Shown here in pieces: positions 40,864 to 45,261 of a stretch of 64,000 bases of DNA (position 1 is its first letter; each line of letters starts with the position of its first letter). Origin of the DNA: Pseudanabaena sp. Chao 1811. GTDB lineage: Bacteria; Cyanobacteriota; Cyanobacteriia; Pseudanabaenales; Pseudanabaenaceae. Where the stretch lies: NCBI RefSeq assembly GCF_027942295.1, contig NZ_CP101416.1:3520501-3584500 (forward strand). Reading direction: 5' to 3'. The notes under the pieces were generated by a model. That model made no database searches. It was not told the DNA's origin and saw nothing but the letters and a program-made list of their open reading frames with translations. The position numbers and the translations under genes are program-made.

Positions 40864-42015
40864 TTATTGCAAAATTTGCCCACGTCCTAGCCATAACTCT
40901 AGCAACAGGATCAAGAATCCGAGCATTGCTAAGCGTCCATTCCATACTTCTGCGGAAGGAGTCATGCCCCATTCCCAACGTTCTTGAGGATAGAGTTTGG
41001 TGTTTTTCTGCGGTTGAATTGTTGCTGAGAATGGGATTGGGCGATCACCTAAAGCTTTAAGTACCACATCAGCTAAGGCTTGGATAAATGTGGGGTCAGT
41101 ATCTGGGGCAGGGACTCGCGCAAAGGTCTCAATTCCCGCATGTTCAGCAATTTCTCGATATTCCATATCGATTTCTTCGAGGGTTTCGATATGCTCCGAG
41201 ACAAAACTGATAGGTACTACTACTAACTCCTTAACCCCTTGTGCTGCTAATTCTTCGATCGCGACATCGGTGTAGGGTTGCAACCATTCAACGGGTCCAA
41301 CACGACTTTGATAAGCCAACTTATAAGGATTTGGTCGATTTAGCTTTTGCATAATTAAAGCTGCACAAGCCTCGATTTCCTTTTGGTAAGGATCACCTGC
41401 TTCTTCGATGTAACTAACTGGCACACCGTGGGCGCTAAAAAAGACATGGGCTTTGCTAGGGTCTTTGACCTGATCAAGTTTAGTGGCGATCAGGTTTGCC
41501 ATTGATTGTAAATACCATGAGTTGTCATACCAAGAAGGCACAACTGTATATTTGATCTTCTGTAATTCAGGATCGGTTTTCCAAATGCGATCTAGTAAGC
41601 GGAAGCTGGAACCTGTAGTGCTGATCGAAAACTGTGGATACAAAGGTAGAACTACTAATTCTTCAATTTTGTCCTTTTTGATCTGAGCGATCGCCTCTTC
41701 AGTGAAGGGATGCCAATAGCGCATTCCCACATAAACTTGAGCTTCATGTCCATTTTGGACGAGCTGTGTACGCAATGCCTGAGCTTGAGCCTCGGTAATG
41801 CGACGGAGAGGAGAGCCACCACCAATTTTTTTGTAGTTTTGCTGAGACTGTTTAGCACGGAGACTGGAAATGAGCCATGCGAGGGGTGCTTGCAACAATG
41901 GCGATGGCAAGCGAATAATTTCTGGGTCAGAAAATAAGTTATACAAAAATGGGCGGACATCCTCTAACTTGTCTGGTCCACCGAGGTTCAGCAGTAAAAC
42001 TCCTAATCGCCCCAT
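40864..42015 (-). CDS. hemH: Ferrochelatase with C-terminal chlorophyll-binding-like segment
   Basis: The protein has 383 residues. The ferrochelatase core (to about residue 320) has [53 protein letters not shown] (catalytic His) and [18 protein letters not shown]. The remaining 60 residues end in a Lhc/HLIP-like motif, [20 protein letters not shown], which forms one membrane helix and can bind chlorophyll. The enzyme inserts iron into protoporphyrin IX. The extension is known in cyanobacterial and plastid type II ferrochelatases, where it is linked to dimerisation and to coordinating heme and chlorophyll synthesis. Confidence 0.96.
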
Positions 42016-42314
42016 ATCAATCGCTATATCCTTTTATACAATTTATATACTATGAGTTTGTTCTATGTAGCACTGATAAAAAGCTCTAAGAATCTTTGAT
42101 CAATACTCTAAAATTTTGCCAGTAGTGCTGAACAGCATACTGAATCTTGTCAGTACTTAAACAATACATTTATTTGGCAGACGGCAAAACTAAATTATTG
42201 CCATTTATTTTCATTATGCCAATAAGTCTATCTCGTTAGCCTATGGAACTGTTAGCAATCCTAACGCATCGGTAAGATTTTGCTGGTTATAGGAAACACA
42301 TGACTAAGTTATGC

Positions 42315-42357
42315 AGATTTCTGTACCCACTCGCATAGCGTGCGGGTACAGAAATCT
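42315..42357. repeat. Hairpin 1 of the hemH/CpcD-like intergenic region
   Basis: AGATTTCTGTACCC pairs with GGGTACAGAAATCT; the loop contains a further CGCA/TGCG dyad. Confidence 0.7.
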
Positions 42358-42437
42358 CGGTTTTAATTTTACTTATGCTTGACTACTTACCTATCATAGG
42401 TTGCAGATTTCTCTACCATGGCTATTACCAACCACAT

Positions 42438-42483
42438 CCCAGAAATGAGTGATGAAGCGAAGCGTCGCCACTCACTTCTGGGG
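42438..42483. repeat. Hairpin 2 of the hemH/CpcD-like intergenic region
   Basis: CCCAGAAATGAGTG pairs with CACTCACTTCTGGG with one mismatch. The tip is rich in GCGAAGCG. Confidence 0.65.
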
Positions 42484-42644
42484 TGTAGATTTCTCCTAAT
42501 GTTAAGTGACGATAGCTATATATTTTTTAGGCTAGAGAATTTGTTTTAGTAGCCATTTTTACGGAATACTTATATAGACAGATTCTTTAGATAAATTATT
42601 TTGACGTGTGATCGTAAAAATGCGATCGCTAGGATGAGTTTGAT

Positions 42645-44099
42645 ATGAAAAGTGTAGATATTGATTCTGTAACTCCATCTGTGGATGATTACAGAAACCA
42701 CCAAGTCCAAATTGAGTTTACAGGTGGCATTCAGCAAGGAAAAGTGCAAGGCAAGACTCAGATAGTCACTATTGCCTATAGCTCCCTTTCCAAAAGAATG
42801 CAAACAATTCGTCGGCTAGGTGGAAAGATTGTCAATGTCTCTATTCTTCGCTTTCAGGCTGATGATATATCAAGGATTGACGATGAGCATGTTGATGCTA
42901 ATCCCGCGATCGCAACCAGTATTGACAATATTCATACGATCGCAGAATCCGCAGCATCTATCGAGCCATCCGATAAGGCGATCGATCAGCCTGCTGAGGT
43001 GAACACAGAAAGTACTTTTTTAGAAGAATCTCATACACCTATTGTTGAAGAGATTGCTACTGAGCCATCTCTTGCTCAAAATGAGCATCATAGCCATGAT
43101 GTAGAAAACTTGGAGAGTAATGCAGATATTACTTCGCAAGATATTTCGGAAGATATTGTTGTAGTAGTGCCAGAAGCGATCGCCCTTGTCTCTGAAGTTA
43201 CGACTGAAGAGACTTTAGAAATGATTGCTGAGCCTAGAGTTATTCCTGAGAATATTCTTGAGGAGCCTGTAAAAACTGTTGATGAACCAGAAACTATTTC
43301 TAAAAATGTTGCAGAGCCGACGGTAGAAACTGTTGCGAAAAAGGGGGATATCGCTGGAGAAAATATAGCAGCAGAAATATTACCAATAGCTGCTCCGAAA
43401 AAATCCAAGTCTAGCTTAGTAGCACCTAAGTCCAAAAAAACACGGACTTCCGCTAAACATGGGTTTAATAAACTTGATTCTAAGCTCAAAACCCACGAAC
43501 CTATAACCAATACCCCTATAGCTCCTATAGCCAATATAGAGTTAGAGATCGCAATACCAGCGCCAGTGGTAGAACCAGAAATTTATACGCCAGTGGTAGA
43601 GTCAGTCCCAGAAATTGACGTGAAGATTACCGACCCCGTGATAGAGGCTTCAGAAACTGTTGTAGAAGAAGCAGTTGTAGAAGAAGCAGTTGTAGAAATT
43701 CATGGAGCAACTAATGTAGAAAGCATAGAAGAAGCAGTTGTAGAAACTAATCCAGAATCTGTAGGTGAATCTGTAGAGACTAATCTAGTAGAAGAAGCAG
43801 TTGTAAAAACTAATCTAGAAACTGTAGATGAATCTGTAGAAATTCATCAACCTGTTGTAGAGCCACAAAACCAGCATGTTGATGAGGTTATTCCAGAACC
43901 TGAGTTACAAACAAGTCTTGCTGATGTTGTAACGCCAGATCCAGAGACAGTTAACGCAGAGACTCCTGCGATCGCAGATGAACACACATCTATAGCTCTT
44001 CCGCAAACCGAAGTCATTGCCACATCAGCTAAATCTAAAAAATCAAAAACTGCTAGTAAATCGGGTCATGGTTTTAGTAAACCTAAATCTCGTAAGTAG
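42645..44099 (+). CDS. CpcD-like linker domain protein with long acidic repeat region
   Basis: The protein has 484 residues. Residues about 20-70 look like a CpcD-type phycobilisome linker domain: QVQIEFTGG, then IAYSSLSKRMQTIRRLGGKIVNVSIL, where VPYSSL..MQ.I.R.GGKIV.I is the family pattern. The next 380 residues are low-complexity and acidic, rich in Glu, Val, Ala and Thr, with EEAVVE repeats (DNA copies at 43665, 43680, 43728, 43791). Two basic Lys/Ser segments are alike: KKTRTSAKHGFNKLDSK (mid) and KTASKSGHGFSKPKSRK (C-terminus). I infer a disordered scaffold that may dock to phycobilisomes or ferredoxin-NADP reductase-like partners. I know no described protein with this layout. Codon use is like the neighbours. 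Confidence 0.7.
   Translation: MKSVDIDSVTPSVDDYRNHQVQIEFTGGIQQGKVQGKTQIVTIAYSSLSKRMQTIRRLGGKIVNVSILRFQADDISRIDDEHVDANPAIATSIDNIHTIAESAASIEPSDKAIDQPAEVNTESTFLEESHTPIVEEIATEPSLAQNEHHSHDVENLESNADITSQDISEDIVVVVPEAIALVSEVTTEETLEMIAEPRVIPENILEEPVKTVDEPETISKNVAEPTVETVAKKGDIAGENIAAEILPIAAPKKSKSSLVAPKSKKTRTSAKHGFNKLDSKLKTHEPITNTPIAPIANIELEIAIPAPVVEPEIYTPVVESVPEIDVKITDPVIEASETVVEEAVVEEAVVEIHGATNVESIEEAVVETNPESVGESVETNLVEEAVVKTNLETVDESVEIHQPVVEPQNQHVDEVIPEPELQTSLADVVTPDPETVNAETPAIADEHTSIALPQTEVIATSAKSKKSKTASKSGHGFSKPKSRK
43665..43805 (+). repeat. In-gene short repeats encoding EEAVV
   Basis: GAAGAAGCAGTTGTA occurs exactly at 43665-43679, 43680-43694, 43728-43742 and 43791-43805, all in frame. This suggests recent expansion by slippage or unequal exchange. 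Confidence 0.85.
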
Positions 44100-44113: not shown

Positions 44114-44168
44114 AAAAAACCAAAACCTGTGGCGCACGCGCAGCGTGCGCCACAGGTTTTGGTTTTTT
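44114..44168 (+). terminator. Long palindromic terminator of the CpcD-like gene
   Basis: AAAAAACCAAAACCTGTGGC continues into CGCACGC and pairs with its full complement around GCA, ending in six T. With more than 25 paired bases, it is one of the longest hairpins in the window. Confidence 0.88.
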
Positions 44169-44421: not shown

Positions 44422-45261
44422 ATGGATAGGGCAATGGATGAATTAAGCAATGTTCTGGCATTGGCAACCGATGAAGAGCTATATCAAATTGCGGATATAC
44501 TGTTTCGGCGTAAATTCAACCCCATTGATTATGTGGCTACCCCGCCTGTGCAAGAGTTACAAAGCTGGGATCGAGATGAACTAATTGAGGCGATCTCAAA
44601 GCGTTTTCGATTTTTGGCTGCCGATGGCTTGACGGTGCTCCGCCGCAAAACTAGTGATGTTAGCTATCGAGAAGTCCTAGAGCGTGTCTGTCAGCACCTC
44701 AATATTAAATATTCCAAGAAGCAAAGTGTTGAAGATATCGAGTCTGAATTATTTCTCAATTTAATTAGCAATTCATGGAAAAAGCTCTCACCTCAGGAGC
44801 GTTCTAGTATTGATGATTCTGTCCAAACAGCTCTTACGGAGTCAAATCTTAAAAAATCCTTGCCCCTTGATGCTCAGCGTAACCCGATGAGTTTGCTAGT
44901 CAAAGGTGGTAGTGCGATCGCGGTGAGTACTGTCATTCGTTCGGCGGTATTAAATGCGATCGCCCGCCAAATGGCATGGCATTTTGCCTCTTACCAAGTG
45001 GGCTATGAAGTTTTGAAGGCAGGAGGCACAGCGATCGCGACAAGGTTAAATGCCTATGTCTCTACCTATTTAGCAAAACGTGGGATGGCAGTTGCAGCAA
45101 CCCAATACACCGCCGCTAGAACCGTTTTTTCAGTAATTACGCCTGCGCTTTGGGGGTTATTTTTTGCGGATCTGGGTTGGCGGGCGATCGCTACTAACTA
45201 CGGACGGATCATTCCTGCTATTTTCATCATTGCTCAAATCAGATTATTGAGAATGTCTTAG
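44422..45261 (+). CDS. YaaW-like (UPF0174) protein
   Basis: The protein has 279 residues. It starts with a short helical module (ELSNVLALATDEELYQIADIL, DUF3944-like). SWDRDELIEAISKRFRFLAADGL and VSYREVLERVCQHLNIKYSKKQSVEDIE resemble the YaaW/COG4735 family. The C-terminal third is hydrophobic and Ala-rich with two to three possible membrane helices. Function is unknown. The assignment rests on remembered family pattern. An ATG at 44434 is a possible alternative to ATG 44422. Confidence 0.6.
   Translation: MDRAMDELSNVLALATDEELYQIADILFRRKFNPIDYVATPPVQELQSWDRDELIEAISKRFRFLAADGLTVLRRKTSDVSYREVLERVCQHLNIKYSKKQSVEDIESELFLNLISNSWKKLSPQERSSIDDSVQTALTESNLKKSLPLDAQRNPMSLLVKGGSAIAVSTVIRSAVLNAIARQMAWHFASYQVGYEVLKAGGTAIATRLNAYVSTYLAKRGMAVAATQYTAARTVFSVITPALWGLFFADLGWRAIATNYGRIIPAIFIIAQIRLLRMS

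Follow-up and report, generated by a model that had tools for sequence, protein, structure and literature searches.

The locus and its CpcD-type domain

The locus lies in a window of 64,000 nucleotides from the complete, 4.73 Mb genome of Pseudanabaena sp. Chao 1811 (genome G000). Its central feature is an open reading frame on the forward strand (42645..44099) that starts with ATG and encodes a long-tailed CpcD-domain protein of 484 amino acids, here termed X, a shorthand that also covers its relatives in phycoerythrin (PE) operons. Immediately 5′ of the start codon, a HIP1 octamer (GCGATCGC) followed by a Shine-Dalgarno-like element (AGGATGAG) can be read on the forward strand (42622..42644), and this stretch is kept upstream of most X orthologues. 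Just past the stop codon, a hairpin followed by a T-run (44115..44168, forward strand) is a likely terminator. The left neighbour is hemH, encoding ferrochelatase (40864..42015, reverse strand; PF00762 and synteny). The C-terminus of this ferrochelatase weakly matches chlorophyll a/b-binding proteins (E 0.004), a trait familiar from cyanobacterial ferrochelatases. Upstream of X lie two hairpin-like imperfect palindromes (near 42310-42360 and 42415-42500) with the appearance of mobile or structural repeats. On the 3′ side, an ORF of 279 amino acids (44422-45261) is without a Pfam match and weakly resembles MsyB in NCBIfam; it also adjoins X in G020, G021, G039 and G040, all of them close relatives.

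The first-pass annotation of this DNA assigned the N-terminus of X to the CpcD-type linkers, and both profile search and predicted fold bear this out. PF01383 (CpcD) matches residues 30-66 with 30.4 bits (E 5e-7) against a gathering score of 27 bits, and relatives reach 33-45 bits in genome scans. The match is N-terminally partial, missing the first ~11 profile positions. In an AlphaFold2 model built on the orthologue alignment, residues 18-70 (42696..42854, forward strand) form a folded domain of three strands (20-27, 39-44 and 60-68) and one helix (45-57), mostly at high pLDDT; the CpcD fold is thus predicted to be complete, although the Pfam match is partial. The top PDB neighbours found by Foldseek are phycobilisome CpcD, ApcC, rod-linker and FNR CpcD domains (probability 1.00), with CpcL-PBS (8hfq) among the top chains; the E-values are weak overall (best 1.8e-3), probably because the disordered tail dilutes the comparison. 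Searches of PDB sequences gave no match with the single X sequence, matched rod linkers, FNR and CpcD with the X family profile, and recovered only other CpcD-type chains with a Gloeobacter homologue.

No other folded unit was recognized. PF01383 was the sole family matched in the Pfam search of X, in which the FAD and NADP domains of FNR were not found, and neither Pfam nor NCBIfam matched a DNA- or RNA-binding domain. The pectinated linker domain, noted earlier as absent, is likewise not found by Pfam search of the 484-residue protein (PF00427), which distinguishes X from the rod linkers CpcC, CpeC, CpeD and CpeE, all with an N-terminal PF00427 domain. X also falls below the cut-offs of the CpcD equivalog model NF058509 (24.3 bits against 80) and of the FNR models NF045929 and NF058510 (18.3 bits against 600). 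NCBIfam matches to KduD and YscX lie far under their cut-offs and were discarded as products of chance or composition.

The acidic tail and the basic GF motif

The domain is followed by a long acidic tail (42855..44027, forward strand), as the first reading of the sequence had it, of which ~400 residues are predicted to be disordered. In the AlphaFold2 model, most of residues 71-468 score under 50 in pLDDT, and the final 15-20 residues of the protein show a slight rise. Residues 76-449 carry a net charge of -62, and ~73% of them are E, V, A, P, I, T or S. The exact in-frame repeats reported in this tail are genuine and go beyond what codon shuffling produces: repeats of GTAGAAGAAGCAGTT (VEEAV) occupy 43659..43808 on the forward strand, a 20-nt unit recurs at 43663, 43678, 43726 and 43789 (spacings of 15, 48 and 63, all in frame), and a 15-nt unit forms a tandem array of 2.6 exact copies. 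The longest exact repeat measures 24 nt, whereas 500 codon shuffles of the tail gave none above 16 nt (mean of the longest, 10.9). Across species, the tails of X orthologues vary in length between about 80 and 430 residues.

Two alike Lys-rich HGF segments had also been pointed out, with HGFNK beginning at residue 272 and HGFSK at residue 475, and profile and alignment show them to be copies of one motif. The internal copy (PKSKKTRTSAKHGFNKLDSK; 43425..43484, forward strand) matches the motif profile with E 6e-8, and the C-terminal basic tip (AKSKKSKTASKSGHGFSKPKSRK; 44028..44096, forward strand) with E 7.5e-8; a search of the window genome with this profile returned exactly these two matches and none in other proteins. 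The consensus of 20 aligned copies from the genus is xKxKKSKTSSKSGxGFNKPKS, in which one K, the G and the F are invariant. The tip itself follows the pattern KSKTxSKSGxGFNKPK, with K472, G476, F477, K479 and K481 invariant in 20 orthologues. The search for homologues by the HGF motif, suggested by the first-pass annotation, covered 291 genomes of the class and found it in the X proteins of 22 Pseudanabaena genomes (1-4 copies each), with no occurrence outside X or outside Pseudanabaena. In G004, a 68-residue unit bearing the motif is repeated within X.

Orthologues of X are present in 22 of 26 Pseudanabaena genomes. They have the N-terminal domain in common (a draft copy in G008 is cut at its start) and all possess the C-terminal tip, the G012 copy being interrupted by a run of N. 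X was not detected in G005 (82% complete), G015 (76% complete), G006 and G014, the last a nearly complete genome in 460 contigs. Selection is unevenly distributed along the protein: between relatives, dN/dS is 0.27-0.33 in the first 75 codons (where computable) and lies at 0.41-0.77 in the tail, exceeding 1 in one pair, whereas the last 35 codons have the lowest values of the protein, 0.16-0.19. As these regions are short, single ratios are noisy, and dS of the tip is low in the pair G022/G011. The pattern nevertheless recurs across pairs, including G000/G021 and G020/G039, strains without CpeC and CpeR. In a sliding-window control, 3/66 and 8/54 tail windows were as conserved as the tip in the two closest pairs, and none in three other pairs. 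The constrained parts of X are the domain and the C-terminal tip, and the tail between them is loose.

Origin in the phycoerythrin operon and retention beyond it

Around X in G013, the genes run in the order hemH / DUF2656 - ankyrin - HEAT - cpeC - cpeD - cpeE - X - cpeS - cpeT - cpeR-like. CpeS and CpeT were identified by Pfam, and the three linkers carry PF00427 and PF01383; the names cpeC/D/E and cpeR follow from position and resemblance to the cpeCDESTR operon of the literature, no model having matched cpeR. X adjoins PE linkers and cpeS-T-R in six species (G001, G007, G013, G016, G018 and G022), and comes after a cpeC-like gene in G010. Outside the genus, nine loci, among them those of Nostoc sp. 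CMAA1605 and Tolypothrix brevis, have a gene with the same domain between the PE linkers and cpeS, with cpe genes on either side, and in Symploca and two Gloeobacter-type genomes an X-type gene lies directly downstream of the linkers. The proteins outside Pseudanabaena are mostly 75-170 amino acids long; several (G256, G208, G157 and G307) contain an acidic segment and finish in a basic end, and in many PE-operon homologues the tail is short or ends differently. For phycobilisomes of Gloeobacter, detection of the full set of small capping linkers has been stated (PMC12525769).

In a tree of CpcD domains, built on only 77 columns, five X proteins from outside the genus join those of Pseudanabaena in one group (100/99), separate from CpcD, PetH and the C-terminal domains of rod linkers. 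The tree does not bring every X protein into a single clade, some falling elsewhere, so that orthology across genera rests mainly on operon position. Given the PE-operon position in six species and the equivalent slot elsewhere, X is the CpcD-type, cap-like linker of the PE operon, which has been elaborated in Pseudanabaena. The first-pass annotation knew of no described protein of this layout; that statement has to be withdrawn to the extent that X belongs to a family of CpcD genes downstream of PE rod linkers. Among the papers covered by the literature search, none was found to name the small gene between cpeE and cpeS, to which X draws attention, or to describe a protein of the layout of X.

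In the window genome, X stands outside any such operon. Genome search found neither a CpeC-like linker nor a CpeR-like gene, and, on reading of the sequences, only two phycocyanin (PC)-like alpha/beta pairs are present besides allophycocyanin-type and divergent members. The second PC-like beta/alpha pair (G000:C1:4345070-4346105) has HEAT-repeat (CpcE/F-like) neighbours. X is found alone beside hemH, a site that looks like a remnant of the PE cluster, since hemH flanks this cluster in G013 and the order hemH - HEAT - X occurs in G002. Eight genomes without CpeC and CpeR keep X (G000, G002, G017, G020, G021, G038, G039 and G040), several of which are closely related and do not represent independent losses. 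The gene thus persists in most genomes of the genus that lack CpeC and CpeR, and its role therefore extends beyond PE rods.

Candidate roles at the rod end

The first-pass annotation offered X as a phycobilisome-associated scaffold or regulator. Association is strongly supported by the operon position beside PE linkers, a regulatory function is unsupported, and a rod-end cap or tether is the better reading. CpcD domains are an established plug for rod ends, and it is most likely that the domain of X caps a rod while the flexible tail presents an electrostatic tether. By analogy with its family, the domain would dock at the rod end, the ~400-residue acidic disordered tail would serve as a flexible spacer, and the basic tip, with its 0-3 internal copies, would act as a short linear binding motif combining electrostatics with a GF anchor. 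Candidate acidic partners include a neighbouring phycobilisome, the anionic thylakoid surface or a photosystem, and a soluble enzyme (e.g. FNR). Taken as a whole, this reading of X as a PE-linker-operon cap whose basic tip tethers the rod end to an acidic partner across a disordered acidic spacer is reasonably probable. X fits the general form of a disordered tether with short linear motifs, having a predicted disordered spacer and a conserved motif in 1-4 copies. The tip is absent outside the genus and many homologues have short or different tails, and tethering through it would be lineage-specific.

A counterpart to this architecture exists in cyanobacterial FNR, which combines a CpcD domain, a flexible linker and a cargo and likewise counts against an orphan layout. 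In Synechocystis, FNR attaches to the rod end through its CpcD domain, which binds the PF00427 domain of CpcC2; because the linker is flexible, the remainder of FNR is not seen in CpcL-PBS (PMC10322944). FNR on CpcL-PBS is the closest mechanistic precedent for X (PMC10322944). Like three-domain FNR (PetH), X has an N-terminal CpcD domain and a flexible linker, and would hold something at the rod end; unlike it, X is without the FNR catalytic domains, and its cargo would bind via a short motif instead of being fused. Separate CpcD (NF058509) is similar in that a PF01383-type domain is the sole folded unit, with docking expected at the distal rod end, but it comprises ~80 amino acids and is encoded with PC linkers, whereas X has a tail of ~400 residues and groups apart in the tree. 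The window genome encodes such a CpcD separately, in its PC operon. In its layout, X is a novel variation on the CpcD-type cap.

The means by which phycobilisomes attach to one another, to membranes and to electron-transfer enzymes are incompletely understood. An extension of the tether reading, possible but less likely than not, casts X as a disordered, multivalent tether at the rod end: Pseudanabaena would have made a scaffold out of a small PE-operon CpcD-type cap, and its basic GF motifs, being repeated, would cross-link neighbouring phycobilisomes or recruit anchor-less FNR or a photosystem. If true, this would represent a new way of organising antennae, one that outlasts the loss of phycoerythrin genes.

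Alternatively, the tail and tip may bind no partner and serve assembly or solubility. On this account, which we regard as rather unlikely, X is a rod cap with a passive tail, an acidic bristle that keeps rods soluble or spaced, the tip serving stability or assembly only; the lack of constraint on the tail (dN/dS up to above 1), its variable length and the operation of homologues elsewhere with little or no tail all agree with it, but it does not predict that the C-terminal ~35 residues should be the most conserved by dN/dS, nor that copies of the GF motif should be duplicated as 68-residue units in G004.

An improbable alternative, which draws on the form of FNR in the genus, is that X uses its basic tip to recruit FNR (or ferredoxin) to rod ends. 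PetH with a CpcD domain was not found by profile search in any of the 26 Pseudanabaena genomes; the PetH match in 25 of them spans profile positions ~105-112 to 411 (about 299 amino acids), and in G012 only CpcD-type pieces matched the profile. In Synechococcus 7002, the attachment of FNR via its CpcD domain is of importance to photoheterotrophic growth (PMC9319322). Against it, FNR of a congener has a calculated pI of ~7 and is not clearly an acidic partner, the heterocystous-type G128 has a PE-operon homologue yet full-length FNR, and short FNR also occurs in lineages without long-tailed X. Among 145 sampled genomes of the class, FNR is mostly full, with short forms in Gloeobacter-type and some other lineages, and short FNR has been described for Gloeobacteria (PMC10696076); the short FNR of Pseudanabaena may therefore be ancestral. 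The idea that X originated when PetH was split and its N-terminal domain came away (split FNR) was rejected, given the short FNR of several lineages and the separation of X from PetH and CpcD domains in the 77-column tree. The coexistence, in most species, of CpcD-less FNR and a separate tipped CpcD protein provides a testable handle on rod-end function.

It is very unlikely that X acts on the cpe operon as a regulator or assembly factor, for instance with a nucleic-acid-binding basic tip and a CpcD sensor domain. CpeR is a known activator of PE genes, X lies near cpeR and its motif is rich in Lys and Ser/Thr, but X is kept in genomes without CpeC and CpeR, and its predicted fold is that of a linker, with no match to a DNA- or RNA-binding domain. 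That X is a functionless relic left by loss of the PE operon, as its isolation beside hemH in a strain without PE genes might imply, is scarcely credible against an intact ORF, purifying selection on domain and tip in G000/G021 and G020/G039, and retention in most genomes without CpeC and CpeR.

Among other systems, ApcG of Synechocystis is small, associates with phycobilisomes and has a flexible extension for which contact with a photosystem has been proposed, and it binds at the core; to our knowledge it is not a CpcD-domain protein. The PE-operon CpcD genes of other genera (Nostoc CMAA1605, Tolypothrix brevis, Symploca SIO2E9 and Gloeobacter-type) share slot and domain with X, but none has the GFNKPK tip, the Nostoc protein ending in GDYTFIDEW and that of Symploca in PWWRKIQWW. 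The ends GDYTFIDEW / GEYTFTEEW are conserved in Nostoc/Tolypothrix-type homologues (L120:5971-6414, L160:5974-6438 and L119:5965-6408), which suggests a different partner for the tail. Symploca sp. SIO2E9 has three tandem CpcD-domain genes after the PE linkers (L122:5968-7882); the second encodes a protein of 350 amino acids with about ten copies of a 23-residue repeat (APEPEPIAEVPVTEETVAETVTV) and a Trp-rich end (PWWRKIQWWPG), and looks like an independent long-tailed version.
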